34,163 nt of DNA from assembly GCA_024403935.1 (NCBI GenBank), contig JAKSQV010000016.1:1-34163 (forward strand), read 5' to 3'. This document shows, in pieces, positions 9,551-15,021 of this stretch (position 1 is its first letter; the number at the start of each line of letters is the position of its first letter). Below the pieces are notes generated by a model. It was given only the letters and a program-made list of their open reading frames with translations, searched no databases and was not told the origin of the DNA. Both the position numbers and the translations under genes were made by a program. The stretch comes from Ruminococcus sp. GTDB lineage: Bacteria > Bacillota > Clostridia > Oscillospirales > Ruminococcaceae.

Positions 9551-9802
9551 TCATCTGAACAGTGAAAAAACCTTCTTCTCATACTGCTCCGACTCTATGG
9601 ACAACACCTTGTAGCCGTCCTCCTCTATGACAGCTCTGATACGTTCCTCATCAAGCGGATGCTCCGAGATCACCTCGGTAATACCGCTCTCATGGGAGGA
9701 AGTCACCTTCTTCACGTCAAAGCTGCCGCTTATAGCTTCGTTTACGTGCGCCTCGCAGTGTCCGCACATCATGCCTTCTATTTTAAGCGTAGTTTTTATC
9801 AT
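9551..9802 (-). CDS. HMA-domain heavy-metal-binding protein (copper chaperone-like)
   Basis: 83 residues. A single HMA ferredoxin-like domain with the metal-binding motif MMCGHC (Cys13, Cys16). Small soluble proteins of this type usually carry Cu(I) to a P-type ATPase; no such ATPase is in the window. The ATG at 9802 is chosen because AGGAGGTG lies six bases upstream; an in-frame start at 9847 would add 15 residues and overlap the helicase gene. The start is 41 bases after the helicase stop, so it may be read through from the TerB-ATPase-helicase operon. No strong terminator is seen in the roughly 100 bases after its stop. Confidence 0.85.
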   Translation of the reverse strand: MIKTTLKIEGMMCGHCEAHVNEAISGSFDVKKVTSSHESGITEVISEHPLDEERIRAVIEEDGYKVLSIESEQYEKKVFSLFR

Positions 9803-9843: not shown

Positions 9844-12096
9844 TCAAGCCTCACTGCTGCCTGACAACTCCGCCGACCATTCGGCTATGCGCTCTTTCAT
9901 GCCGCTGATGTCGAGTATACCGTACGCAAAGCCCTTGCGGACAAGCTCGGGCGGTACATATTGGTCATACTTCTCAAACAGCGGTACCTCGTTCGGATAT
10001 ACAAGCTCTAACGGATCAAAGCTGACCTGTGCCTCCTCGGCGAGTATACGGAAGAATTCCTCGGGCTGCACCTTCATGGTGAACTGTATGTAATACGGAC
10101 GTGCCGAATCCATGCCGCGCAATCCGAGCCTTTCGGCACAGCGGAGCTTCAGGAAGCGTTCCATTGCGAAAAATGCATACGTTCCGAGCCACGGGAACAA
10201 TGCCCACATATTTCCGCCGAGACATATCAGCGGCGTATCCGTCAAGCCCGAATTGCGGGCTGACTGCCGTCCCTGCTCAAGCCGCAGAACTGCGTTCTTC
10301 ATCAGATATGGGTAGCTCATATCCTCGCGCAGCACCTGCCGCATACGGAGAAGTATCTTCGTGTTGATGTCTCCGGGACAGTCGCCGAAGTATGCAGGCA
10401 CCTTGCCTTTTATCTTTTCACAGTATACAAGACGGCGTTTGTGGTCTATCTCCTCGACAAGCCATACGTGTCCTGCTATCGCAAGCTTTTCGCCTACCGG
10501 CGGCGGACTCACGACAGTACCGAGCTCCTGTGAATCCCAGCGGACTGTGTACTCCTCATTTTCCTGAAATACCGCATAGAATTTGAAGCTGTTTATAATC
10601 CTCTCGCCTGCAAGTCCTACGATGAGTCCGCCCTCCTCCGTTCGCTGGATATGCTCTGTCTCAAGCAGATGACAAAGCAGGATGCGGAAATCATCCTGTG
10701 AAATGCGGTGGAAGTATTTCAGCGACAGCACCCGCGATGCAAGCTGTGCAGGTGTCAGCTCGCCGTTTGAAGCAAGCGTGCTCATGGTCTGGTGATACAG
10801 AAGCGAAAATGGCAGTCGGTCAAGCTTTGGCGGCTCTACCCAGTGCTCCTCCGCATATACCTGTATCAGAGCTATCCCCTGTATCAGCGTCCACGGAACT
10901 GTCTCAGGAAGCATTGAGCGCGGCTCGGGAAGCTCCTCGCGTATAACGAACCACATTTCGGGCGGCAGGTCGCGCCTGCCTGTGCGTCCCATGCGCTGAA
11001 GGAATGACGAAACTGTAAACGGCGCATTTACCTGAAAGGCTCTTTCAAGCCTGCCTATGTCGATGCCAAGCTCAAGAGTAGCCGTTGTACATGTTGTCAT
11101 AAAGATGTCATCATCCTTCATCGCTGCTTCTGCTGTCTCGCGGTATGCAGCGGAAAGGTTGCCGTGATGTATAAGGAATCGGTCCGGCTCATGTTTTGCC
11201 TCGCAGTATGAACGGAGCGTGGTCGTGGCAGCCTCGCACTCCTCGCGTGAATTAAGGAATACGAGGCACTTTTTGCCGCGTGTATGCTCGAAGATATACC
11301 CCATTCCTGCATCGGCGTGCTCCGGAGCAGTATCCGTTTTCTCCTCAGGAACGGGCAGAGCTTCCACCTCCGCACCATCAGCGGGCTGATTCTCCTGCGA
11401 AATGTAGAAGTGCTCCATAGAAAGCCGCCACTTCACCTTTTTGCCTTCAATACGCGGTATTATCGTACCTCTGCCTGTACCGGAGGCAAGGAACTCTCCT
11501 GCAGCTTCAAGGTCGCCGATTGTTGCAGACAGACCTATCCTGCGCGGATTTGCTCCTGACAGTCTGCAAAGACGCTCTATCAGACAGAGCGTCTGTCCGC
11601 CGCGGTCACCGCGCATGAGCGAGTGCACCTCGTCAATGACGATAAAGCGCAGGTCACCGAACAGCTTCGGTATCAGCGAGTGCTTACGCAGCAGCATGGC
11701 TTCCAGAGATTCGGGTGTTATCTGCAATATACCCGAAGGATTTTTCAGCATCTTCGCCTTATGAGACTGTGCCGCATCGCCGTGCCAGTGCCATACAGGT
11801 ATATCCGCTTCCTCGCATAGCTCCGTCAGCCGCGTGAACTGGTCATTTATCAGGGCTTTCAGCGGTCCGATATACAATGCTCCCACCGAGCGCGGCATAT
11901 CCTCAGTAAAAAGAGTAAGTACCGGAAAAAAAGCAGCTTCTGTCTTGCCGGAGGCTGTCGATGCCGAAAGCAATACGTTTTCATCGGTGTTGAATATTGC
12001 TTCACCCGCAGCAGCCTGTATCGCGCGGAGCGACTCCCAGCCGTTCCGATATATGAAATCCTGAACAAACGGCGCATATCGGTCAAAAACGTTCAT
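9844..12096 (-). CDS. Lhr-like superfamily 2 DEAD/DEAH helicase (BrxHI-like)
   Basis: 750 residues. SF2 motifs: Walker A STASGKTEA with Lys51, motif II DEVH at 155-158, motif III SAT at 190-192, motif V ATLELGIDIG at 339-348 and motif VI QRMGRTGR at 367-374. The region after about residue 380 resembles the winged-helix and core extension of Lhr-type helicases, which are 3'-5' DNA/RNA helicases. It is far shorter than full-length Lhr (about 1500 residues) and near the size of BrxHI of BREX type 2. The ATG has GAGGGGGG upstream. It is the third gene of an operon with a BrxD-like ATPase and a TerB-domain protein, so a role in DNA handling or defence with those partners is inferred. Confidence 0.85.
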   Translation of the reverse strand: MNVFDRYAPFVQDFIYRNGWESLRAIQAAAGEAIFNTDENVLLSASTASGKTEAAFFPVLTLFTEDMPRSVGALYIGPLKALINDQFTRLTELCEEADIPVWHWHGDAAQSHKAKMLKNPSGILQITPESLEAMLLRKHSLIPKLFGDLRFIVIDEVHSLMRGDRGGQTLCLIERLCRLSGANPRRIGLSATIGDLEAAGEFLASGTGRGTIIPRIEGKKVKWRLSMEHFYISQENQPADGAEVEALPVPEEKTDTAPEHADAGMGYIFEHTRGKKCLVFLNSREECEAATTTLRSYCEAKHEPDRFLIHHGNLSAAYRETAEAAMKDDDIFMTTCTTATLELGIDIGRLERAFQVNAPFTVSSFLQRMGRTGRRDLPPEMWFVIREELPEPRSMLPETVPWTLIQGIALIQVYAEEHWVEPPKLDRLPFSLLYHQTMSTLASNGELTPAQLASRVLSLKYFHRISQDDFRILLCHLLETEHIQRTEEGGLIVGLAGERIINSFKFYAVFQENEEYTVRWDSQELGTVVSPPPVGEKLAIAGHVWLVEEIDHKRRLVYCEKIKGKVPAYFGDCPGDINTKILLRMRQVLREDMSYPYLMKNAVLRLEQGRQSARNSGLTDTPLICLGGNMWALFPWLGTYAFFAMERFLKLRCAERLGLRGMDSARPYYIQFTMKVQPEEFFRILAEEAQVSFDPLELVYPNEVPLFEKYDQYVPPELVRKGFAYGILDISGMKERIAEWSAELSGSSEA

Positions 12097-12133
12097 CCTG
12101 TCCCCCCTCGGAGCTGATATGTAATCTCAATTC

Positions 12134-13459
12134 TCATATCTCGAACTCTGCAAACTCGTCCTCGGTGCTCTCCTGCGATACTGAGGACGGCATATTCTCT
12201 GACATTATGAATTCACTGATATTGATGTGCGGATTCTGGTATACGATGTCAAGAAGCTCTATGAAATCGCGTATCACCTCACGCGGTGTGATGTGGCTGT
12301 CCGAGCCGATACGTCCGAATTCAAGCTTGATGAAGGCCACCATGTCCTCCTGTGTGATGTGTCGCTCGTAGCCGAAAAGTCCTGCATGGATGTCGGCAAG
12401 CTTCTCGGTGAGGACAAGCATCTCCTCATAAGTGAGCGGTGTGAGATGTATGACGGGCGCAAGCATATCCTTTACGCCTTCCCTGCCGAATCTTCCCTCG
12501 GCAAGCCGTGAACGCAGAGCCTCGTAGCTGTAGACTCCGCGCCGCGTATCCTCGATACACTGCGGAGTTCCTCCCATTATTATACCGAGATGCTTTGCCT
12601 TGCCCTGAAGTGTGTCATTGTACATGGTGAGAATCTTTTCATAGTTGTACTGGCGCGTAATTGCGTTAGGTATCTTGTATATATTCACAAGCTCGTCAAT
12701 GAGCACAAGCAGTCCGCTGTATCCTGCACGCGTCAGAAAGGCGGCAAAGAGCTTGATATACTCATACCAGTCGTCATCCGTGATAATGATATTCACACCG
12801 AGGTCATTCTTCGCTTCGGTCTTGGTAGTGTATTCGCCGCGGAACCACTTCACTACCTTTGCCTTGCTCTCGTCATCGCCTGCCGCATACGAACGGTAGT
12901 ATATCGTCAGCAGCTTTGCAAAGTCGAAGCCGTGTACCATTTCATTCAGTGCTGCTATTACCTCGAATATCTTCTTCTCAACAGCAGCTTCAAACTGCGG
13001 TGAATCAGCGGAAAGCCCCGTTTCGGCGGCTGTTTCCGACTGCACGCTGCTTATCCAGCGGTCGAGGATAAGCGTGAGAGCTCCGCCGTCGGGACGCGTC
13101 TTTGTGGACATATTGCGTATGAGCTCCTTGTACGTGGCAATTCCCTGCCCCTTTGTGCCCTGGAGACGCCGCTCGGGAGAGAGGTCGGCATCGACTACGA
13201 CAAAGCCTCTGTCCATAACGTGAGCACGTATCGTCTGAAGAAGAAAGCTCTTTCCGCTTCCGTATTTTCCCACAATGAAGCGGAAGGATGCTCCCCCGTC
13301 CTCAATTATGTCCACATCGTGGAGCAGAGCGTCTATCTCGACTTCTCTCCCGACGGTTATGTATGGCAGTCCTATCCTCGGAACAACGCCGCCCTTAAGC
13401 GAATTTATTACTGCGGAAGCTATTCGCTTCGGCACAGCCGGTCTGTTATTTTCAGGCAT
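12134..13459 (-). CDS. BrxC/BrxD-type P-loop ATPase (DUF2791-like)
   Basis: 441 residues. AAA+/STAND-like P-loop protein with Walker A VGKYGSGKSF at 63-72 and Walker B LVLIDE at 251-256, followed by a sensor-like IIMGGTPQ. The N-terminal IGLPYITVGRE segment and DADLSPERRL block match the family used as the ATPase of BREX type 2 (BrxD) and of related orphan cassettes. The ATG at 13459 has AAGAGGTG six bases upstream; a GTG nine bases further up is in frame but would sit in that ribosome site. It starts 12 bases after the TerB gene stop and ends 37 bases before the helicase. No methyltransferase or PglZ gene lies nearby. Confidence 0.83.
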   Translation of the reverse strand: MPENNRPAVPKRIASAVINSLKGGVVPRIGLPYITVGREVEIDALLHDVDIIEDGGASFRFIVGKYGSGKSFLLQTIRAHVMDRGFVVVDADLSPERRLQGTKGQGIATYKELIRNMSTKTRPDGGALTLILDRWISSVQSETAAETGLSADSPQFEAAVEKKIFEVIAALNEMVHGFDFAKLLTIYYRSYAAGDDESKAKVVKWFRGEYTTKTEAKNDLGVNIIITDDDWYEYIKLFAAFLTRAGYSGLLVLIDELVNIYKIPNAITRQYNYEKILTMYNDTLQGKAKHLGIIMGGTPQCIEDTRRGVYSYEALRSRLAEGRFGREGVKDMLAPVIHLTPLTYEEMLVLTEKLADIHAGLFGYERHITQEDMVAFIKLEFGRIGSDSHITPREVIRDFIELLDIVYQNPHINISEFIMSENMPSSVSQESTEDEFAEFEI

Positions 13460-13471
13460 TGTATTCACCTC

Positions 13472-14959
13472 TTATATATAGTTTTTAAGCTCTTCGGCGT
13501 AGTCCGCGATGACCTCGGGAACATCTGCGGTGCAGTCGATGACCGTATCTGCAAAAACATCGTAAAGCTTGTCATTAATGCTGTCTGCGAGCAGTGACGG
13601 CATAACGCCTGCCCCCTTTGCGGCAGACGACCAGTCCCCTCCCTCAAGCAGCACGCGAAGAAAGAGCCTTTCGCTGTCATCAAGCGGAGTGTCGCTCACT
13701 GCTTCATCAGCCTTTACGGGAAAATTCTCAGGCTCGGGTGTGGGAACATCAGGCTCCTCGTCAACTATCAGTCTGTCTCGTGTAACATCGGCGGCAGCCC
13801 GTATCCCTGCGAGCTTTGAAAGGTCGATCTCGATCCTTTTCGCTTCGGAAAGCCGCTTCTCCGCATCTATTTCATCAAGCACCTTTTTTATCAGCTCTGC
13901 CGTTGACTTGGATACCTCCGCAGGTCTGAGCCTGTATCGGAAATCATAACGCTCACGCATCAGGTGATCGAGCATCTTCATCAGCTCACCGAGCTGCTGG
14001 CTGCGGCTCCTGCTGCCGTAATACCGGTAACACCGCCACACGCCGTTGCGGCAGGTGTAGGTGTGTATGAGATTCAATGTGTAGTCCGTACTGCGGACGG
14101 TGTTTCTGTCGTAGAATACCGCCGACTCGAAAAGTCGGCAGTTCATCTCGGTGGGATGCCCGAAAAGCTTGTCACACAGTGACTTCTTTCTGTGTCCGCG
14201 GAAAAACTCAGACAGGCTGCGGAACACTCTTACTGCCGCAGTTTTAAATTCTGCGGCATTTGCAATGTAATAACGTGACTGTCCGAACGGATAGCCCGAG
14301 AGGTAATCAAGTGCGGCAAACAGTTCGTCGTCCGAGCTCTCCTCCCAGTTCAGCAGTCTCAGCAATGAGCTGTCATACAGCATATCAGGCATATCCGCAA
14401 TGCTCTGCGGGTCAAGCTGTTCGTATACGCAGTAATCGACCGTCCACTGGTGCAGATGCTTTTTCAGTTCTGCGTTCGTACCGCCGTATGCTTCCGCAAG
14501 GCGCTTCAGCAATACGATACGTTCCTGCGGTGATTCAGCTCCTATGCCGTTTATCAGTTCGTAGGCACGCATATACACAAACGGTATCGGAGCAGCGGCA
14601 TATTCGTTTTTCCAAAGCCGTGCCCTCCACGAAAAAAAGCCGCGGAGCTGTTCTGTTTCAAGGTCACGGTAGGTAGGATAATACCGTACGAAGTCTGACG
14701 TATACTCATATACATCGCTGAAATCCTCCATGAATCTGCCCTGAGTATAGAACAGCCACGCAGAGGTCTTCCAGTAAGCCTCAGGCGTGTACGCGAGAGC
14801 TTTCATATCCTTTATCTTCTGCGGTGTTTCGGGAGTCTGTATCTGTGAGGCGCGTTTCAGTATCGGCTGGTCGGTGTATACTTTATCGCGGAATGCACGG
14901 CTCCCGAGCAGCTTTTCATCGTGCAGCACAGAATCAAGTATGTCTTTCACGTCCGACAT
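13472..14959 (-). CDS. TerB_N/TerB_C domain protein, first gene of helicase cassette
   Basis: 495 residues. An N-terminal TerB_N-type region covers roughly residues 60-260 with the marker block YRDLETEQLRGFFSWRARL (97-115) and VYMRAYELINGIG. A TerB_C-like tail occupies about the last 75 residues (LPxSLLADSIND-type block and a DVPEVIADYAEEL end). TerB domains were named from tellurite-resistance loci, but this protein has no link to a tellurite operon here; partners are an ATPase and a helicase. The ATG at 14959 has AAGGGGG seven bases upstream; a GTG two codons earlier is possible. The predicted role is an adaptor or sensor for the cassette. The family call is good, the function unknown. Confidence 0.8.
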   Translation of the reverse strand: MSDVKDILDSVLHDEKLLGSRAFRDKVYTDQPILKRASQIQTPETPQKIKDMKALAYTPEAYWKTSAWLFYTQGRFMEDFSDVYEYTSDFVRYYPTYRDLETEQLRGFFSWRARLWKNEYAAAPIPFVYMRAYELINGIGAESPQERIVLLKRLAEAYGGTNAELKKHLHQWTVDYCVYEQLDPQSIADMPDMLYDSSLLRLLNWEESSDDELFAALDYLSGYPFGQSRYYIANAAEFKTAAVRVFRSLSEFFRGHRKKSLCDKLFGHPTEMNCRLFESAVFYDRNTVRSTDYTLNLIHTYTCRNGVWRCYRYYGSRSRSQQLGELMKMLDHLMRERYDFRYRLRPAEVSKSTAELIKKVLDEIDAEKRLSEAKRIEIDLSKLAGIRAAADVTRDRLIVDEEPDVPTPEPENFPVKADEAVSDTPLDDSERLFLRVLLEGGDWSSAAKGAGVMPSLLADSINDKLYDVFADTVIDCTADVPEVIADYAEELKNYI

Positions 14960-14992
14960 TTTCACGCCCCCTTTTCAATATCTTTACCTTTT

Positions 14993-15021
14993 ATTATAGC
15001 ACAGCTTCTGCCGATTGTCAA
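14993..15021 (-). promoter_or_regulatory. Consensus sigma-A promoter of the TerB-ATPase-helicase operon
   Basis: Minus strand: exact TTGACA, 17-base spacer, exact TATAAT, with extended -10 (TGC-TATAAT). The leader is about 27 bases. The match suggests strong constitutive transcription unless a repressor acts. Confidence 0.88.

Follow-up and report, generated by a model that had tools for sequence, protein, structure and literature searches.

Organization of the cassette

Three adjacent genes, all intact and all on the minus strand, are situated in a 34,163 nt stretch of DNA from a Ruminococcus-type bacterium (the whole of this stretch is referred to below as the window). The genes are designated here sngA, sngB and sngC, and their coordinates are presented in Table 1, together with those of a promoter-like site upstream of sngA. 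The likely start of each gene is an ATG with a Shine–Dalgarno-like site, as read from the sequence. Only 3 nt separate the listed ORFs of sngA and sngB, and 37 nt those of sngB and sngC, so that co-transcription is likely. The predicted promoter matches the consensus at 12 of 12 positions; 16 promoter-like sites were found in the scanned stretch, as compared with a mean of 6.9 in shuffled sequences. The ORF list and the promoter match confirm the first-pass annotation in its description of three adjacent minus-strand genes behind a single consensus promoter. Neither a tRNA gene nor an Rfam match at the gathering threshold was found in the cassette.

Table 1. Coordinates of the sng genes and of the promoter-like site in the window
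Feature	Position	Strand	Description
sngA	13472..14965	minus	497 aa ORF; likely true start ATG 14959
sngB	12134..13468	minus	444 aa ORF; likely start ATG 13459
sngC	9844..12096	minus	750 aa ORF; likely start ATG 12096
Promoter-like site	14993..15021	minus	Extended −10 sigma-70 type, TTGACA-17-TATAAT with preceding TG; consensus match

Identity of the three proteins

SngA was matched by a single PADLOC profile, that for SngA (E=6.6e-70, aa 28–495). SngB and SngC were matched by the profiles of the same names with E values of 1.3e-195 (649 bits) and 3e-278 (923 bits), respectively. Pfam domains above the cut-off in SngA were TerB_N (PF13208, aa 48–215) and TerB_C (PF15615, aa 369–494). SngB is a member of the BrxC_BrxD family (PF10923, E=2.9e-174), with a Walker A motif at aa 67–74, a Walker B motif at aa 254–259 and a conserved C-terminal tail, while SngC contains DEAD and Helicase_C domains, the former overlapped by a ResIII match. 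It is apparent that the domains assigned in the first-pass annotation (a TerB_N/TerB_C protein, a BrxC/BrxD-family ATPase and an Lhr-like helicase) are those recognized by Pfam. The Walker A and B motifs, reported there as intact, and the SF2 helicase motifs, all reported there as present, are conserved throughout the 29 full-length trios of the genus described below. No nuclease domain was found in SngA, SngB or SngC.

Among solved structures, the top matches to SngC were 5v9x, a bacterial ATP-dependent DNA helicase that we take to be an Lhr protein (E=1.3e-24), and 6znp. SngC resembles the Lhr helicase in this respect, but is a protein of 750 aa encoded in an operon with sngA and sngB. No convincing match to a solved structure was obtained by sequence for SngB, or by sequence or profile for SngA, the weak matches to which had E values of 0.16 to 0.65. 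SngA shares its TerB_N and TerB_C domains with the TerB-containing Ter stress systems; Anantharaman, Iyer and Aravind have reportedly worked on the Ter domains. SngC is said to cluster with BrxHI, DruE and DpdJ in the accessible text of PMC12278908.

According to the accessible portion of PMC10250203, the Shango system consists of a TerB-like protein, an ATPase and a DEAD/DEAH helicase. In Pseudomonas aeruginosa PAO1 it lowers plating 10–100-fold for many, though not all, of the phages tested, and it is also found in Escherichia coli, where modest inhibition of two phages was observed. Shango has also been listed among the systems found in rumen genomes, in the part of a rumen survey that could be consulted (PMC13356809). 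The cassette of the window comprises the same three protein families as the Shango systems of P. aeruginosa PA14 and E. coli, each protein having its best profile match there, in the same order of TerB protein, ATPase and helicase; this likeness to the tested systems was drawn through the PADLOC profiles. It differs from them in its Ruminococcus-type host and in that no defence island was seen around it. On the basis of these profile matches, the cassette is almost certainly (with a probability of roughly 0.97) a Shango operon for defence against phages, complete in its three genes, sngA, sngB and sngC. It is a well-preserved member of a system that has already been described. The DNA-processing defence cassette suggested by the first-pass annotation is likely; its statement that no experimental function was known for the trio was mistaken, as Shango has published anti-phage activity (PMC10250203, accessible portion).

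Distribution and gene order

PF10923 was detected in 54 of the 149 genomes searched: the genus accounts for 39 of these, counting that of the window, and the order for 15. When named genomes were scanned by pattern, at least 573 relatives of SngB were obtained, of which 80 were kept as a set of named loci. Some of these derive from the same genomes as the loci analysed below, and the two sets are not independent. The survey of gene order that had been proposed as a check showed the order to be conserved: sngA, sngB and sngC lie in that order on one strand in 72 of the 80 named loci (80 of at least 573 relatives). Six of the other eight are cut by a contig end, and two are without SngC within 6–7 kb.

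Among 72,556 plasmid records, 692 carried relatives of SngB, all below 60% identity, and 542 of these 692 were typed as conjugative; SngB of the window is approximately 42% identical to the copies on enterobacterial plasmids. Five annotated plasmid regions were opened, and in all five the TerB protein, ATPase and helicase were found side by side in the same order. One of these regions, from a haloarchaeon, carries the Shango trio beside BREX-5 genes. Shango was not found in viral contigs in a pattern-limited scan.

Within the genus, 39 loci were available (the window and 38 others), 29 of which contain three full-length genes. Five of the remaining ten are cut by contig ends (L032, L045, L052, L069 and L070), three have an unlinked member (L042, L046 and L068) and two have interrupted genes (L060 and L064). 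Some of the 29 full trios have an extra ORF between sngB and sngC, and in one that is counted among them (L057) sngC is inverted.

Co-occurrence of the sng genes

Ninety congeneric genomes (G000–G089) were covered by the searches for all three proteins. SngA, SngB and strong SngC matches (>300 bits) were observed in exactly the same 39 of these genomes, and none of the three in the other 51. Linkage explains most of this shared presence, and the informative cases are those in which the genes are not linked. In G032, sngA and sngB are on contig C8 and sngC is on C35; in G005, sngA and sngB are on C30 and sngC is on the short contig C135; in G028, sngB and sngC are on C32 and sngA is on C6. These three genomes are situated on separate branches of an ackA tree, and the separations therefore appear to have been independent events. 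In four genomes outside the genus (G118, G136, G094 and G143), the strong SngC match lies on a contig other than that of SngB. The retention of the genes as a set even when physically separated argues for one machine rather than for hitchhiking. There are counter-cases: SngA and SngB are accompanied by no strong SngC in the genomes to which L135 and L139 belong, or in G139 (60% complete). Most of the genomes are drafts, and errors of binning or assembly may lie behind unlinked or missing members.

When presence of Shango was mapped on a quickly built ackA tree (77 genomes), nine changes were required, as compared with approximately 26 in shuffled labellings, none of which (0 of 500) gave a number as low. 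A single supported clade holds 35 carriers among its 43 genomes, versus 2 among the 34 elsewhere. Shango is, in the main, a resident of this clade, with some losses or gains. The ackA gene itself is part of the retrieved locus in ten cases within the genus, that of the window among them, and a contig-end fragment of it is found in L046.

Sequence conservation and selection

The mean pairwise identities among the 29 full trios are 52.2% for SngA, 82.9% for SngB and 85.2% for SngC, and SngA has the lowest identity in every one of the 406 pairs. For nine close loci, in which dS was near saturation, dN/dS was 0.151 for SngA, 0.046 for SngB and 0.040 for SngC (one of the nine SngC sequences, that of L045, is cut by a contig end). 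Ten flanking genes, represented by 2–7 sequences each, gave values of 0.030–0.173; SngA lies above eight of these and below two. SngB and SngC are strongly held by purifying selection, and SngA evolves quickly, though still within the ordinary range. The dN/dS analysis of the nine loci gave no gene-wide indication of positive selection in sngA, sngB or sngC. The possibility that SngA is a hypervariable, arms-race protein was considered and is not supported, since its dN/dS falls inside the range of the flanking genes.

Two short segments are also conserved. The lettered positions of a patch at aa 63–79 of SngA, AYWKTSxWLFxxQGxFM, are invariant in the 29 trios, and the C-terminal tail of SngB, EFAEFEI, is exact in 21 of them. 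The distances of the three sng genes are correlated with one another at r values of 0.86–0.91, versus 0.51–0.78 with ackA (27 genomes).

A possible separately encoded helicase–nuclease partner

In two loci, L081 and L082, a gene for a protein of 1675–1679 aa directly follows sngC. The protein of L081 matches PDC-S37 (E=1.7e-60) and contains an MTES_1575 nuclease domain, that of L082 is a relative with 60% identity, and the domain suggests that this fourth gene is a possible effector. In L069, a gene for a protein of 1809 aa follows sngC; no PADLOC match to it was found. It might be supposed, then, that Shango delivers invaders to a separately encoded helicase–nuclease of the PDC-S37/DUF3320 type, which does the cutting. 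In its full form, Shango would be a nuclease-free module for targeting and helicase loading, all three parts of which are obligate even when encoded apart, and it would hand invader DNA to a separate DUF3320 (PDC-S37/Hhe-like) helicase–nuclease, with L081 and L082 showing the two joined.

A PDC-S37 protein of full length is encoded on a different contig of the window's genome, and a large multi-domain helicase is listed beside the Shango genes of PA14 in the accessible portion of PMC10250203. PDC-S37 was found in 34 of the 39 Shango genomes versus 10 of the 51 without Shango (15 of 51 on a broad count); clear fragments (G004, G005, G033 and G080) were scored as present, and G043, G063, G065, G082 and G084 were excluded from the strict count. 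Under phylogenetic control, however, this association was not supported. Nine independent pairs were obtained, of which 2.9 differed in the same direction, 0.5 in the opposite direction and 5.7 not at all, giving a median p of 0.5; with so few informative pairs, a value of 0.05 was out of reach. PDC-S37 was accordingly rejected as a genome-wide partner of Shango. Furthermore, five Shango genomes, all drafts, are without a strong PDC-S37 match, and among ORFs of at least 900 aa, relatives of the fourth gene were found at only two of 53 genome loci, L081 and L082, and at none of the 80 named loci (80 of at least 573 relatives). Delivery to such a helicase–nuclease is unlikely, as is the fuller scheme.

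Neighbouring genes and a possible housekeeping role

A Y-family polymerase, recognized by Pfam, adjoins the cassette in the window. Apart from the window, only L036, L045 and L155 have a match to this polymerase in the locus, with a further weak match (25%) in L150, and the neighbouring flavin protein (PNPOx) was matched in the window alone. The tie to these two neighbours proposed in the first-pass annotation is therefore unsupported, and a functional link between them and the cassette was rejected, as the neighbours are not conserved. No defence genes were identified by PADLOC among 15 other proteins of the window, apart from one weak permease-domain match, and so no defence island is visible there.

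These observations bear on whether the cassette might be a housekeeping module for DNA repair or stress, either Ter-like or concerned with damage tolerance in concert with the adjacent polymerase, rather than a phage defence. The TerB domains, the adjoining polymerase, the fact that no defence island was seen around the cassette and the residence of Shango in one ackA clade are all consistent with such a role. It is nonetheless very unlikely, considering the anti-phage activity of Shango in P. aeruginosa, the occurrence of SngB relatives on plasmids, most of them typed as conjugative, the rarity of the polymerase at other loci and the nine changes that the presence of Shango requires on the ackA tree.

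Relationship to BREX type 2

The first-pass annotation equated the ATPase and helicase with the brxD–brxHI pair of BREX type 2. SngB does match the PADLOC profile for BrxD (E=5e-48, 162 bits), and SngC that for BrxHI (E=7.8e-121, 403 bits), but the SngB and SngC profiles are ahead by 486 and 521 bits, respectively, and SngB scores 164.5 bits against the NCBIfam BREX_BrxD equivalog, under its cut-off of 350 bits. The profile search thus bears out the TerB_N, TerB_C and BrxC/BrxD families and the BrxHI-like match, while the best models are those of Shango and not those of BREX. Both systems appear to place distantly homologous proteins, an AAA+ ATPase and an Lhr-like SF2 helicase, beside one another, and the distant kinship of the two pairs holds on these scores; the cassette differs in having a TerB protein, in its BrxD and BrxHI scores, which are well short of those for the Shango profiles, and in having no PglZ match. 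The search for PglZ covered the genome of the window, a draft that is 74% complete, in which PF08665 gave no matches, and PglX, PglW and PglY were not matched by PADLOC among the trio and 15 other proteins of the window. In type 2 BREX, BrxD and BrxHI are closely linked as a dyad (PMC12839542, accessible text). That the cassette is a reduced or decayed form of BREX type 2, a brxD–brxHI pair left over from a BREX locus with the TerB protein replacing lost parts, is nevertheless most improbable and was rejected: it is largely refuted by the profile scores, including the missed equivalog cut-off, and by the independent conservation of the trio, with its own gene order and wide spread.

Proposed mechanism

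A Shango operon in a Ruminococcus-type bacterium is very probably the best explanation overall for the data presented in the preceding sections. The mechanism of Shango is listed as unknown in the accessible part of a 2026 review (PMC12926258), and no mechanistic paper on Shango was found in the open-licence literature among the matches listed. BrxD has been classed as an ORC/Cdc6 AAA+ ATPase and proposed as a loader of BrxHI (PMC12839542, accessible text). The word Shango does not occur in that text, and the transfer of the loading model to SngB and SngC is our own.

By homology, it is tentatively proposed that SngA may target, SngB load and SngC disrupt or remodel phage DNA. We infer the following roles, target and outcome. 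SngA, which carries the TerB_N and TerB_C domains and changes fastest of the three, would recognize or dock on a DNA or protein structure associated with the invader. SngB, as an ORC/Cdc6-type AAA+ ATPase of the BrxD family, would oligomerize and load SngC. SngC, as an SF2 helicase of the Lhr/BrxHI type, would then translocate along the targeted DNA and remodel it, such that phage replication stalls. As no nuclease domain was found in the trio, the damage would have to arise by unwinding or displacement, or through a further nuclease.

These modest comparative results help to frame the mechanism of Shango: the three genes are retained as a set when separated, and the TerB subunit is far more variable than the ATPase and the helicase. 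The Ruminococcus-type clade, in which Shango is stably resident and has diverged into dozens of copies, provides natural variation that can be drawn on in work on the mechanism.

Genes neighbouring sngC

In the window, the gene for a CopZ-like protein begins approximately 40 nt past sngC, the helicase gene of the Shango defence trio (sngA-sngB-sngC). Relatives of this protein are also encoded in six near loci, downstream of sngC and at most approximately 1.7 kb away. The relative in locus L058 is likewise found downstream of sngC, and ackA lies on the other side there. In the congeneric genome G032, a CopA-like gene, so called from its N-terminal motif only, adjoins the unlinked sngC.

The fourth-gene proteins of loci L081 and L082 are 1675–1679 aa long, and that of L081 contains an MTES_1575 nuclease domain. 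A PDC-S37 candidate was also identified in the window's own genome (see table).

Features identified in the window and in compared loci
Feature	Location	Strand	Remarks
CopZ-like metal-binding protein, 83 aa	window 9551-9802	-	named from GMMCGHC motif
DUF3320/PDC-S37-like protein	L081 11541-16568		fourth gene, directly 3′ of sngC
DUF3320/PDC-S37-like protein	L082 11554-16593		fourth gene, directly 3′ of sngC
PDC-S37 candidate defence protein, 1944 aa	G000:C32:997-5631 (L198)		window's genome, contig other than window's
Partial SngA C-terminal ends, tandem pair	L069 1-441 (G037)		at contig start

Other arrangements of Shango genes

In L057 (genome G075), sngAB and sngC are oppositely oriented within one locus. 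A plasmid of the archaeon Halocatena salina (L166) carries a Shango trio downstream of the BREX-5 genes pglX and pglZ, with one helicase-related gene separating pglZ from the trio.
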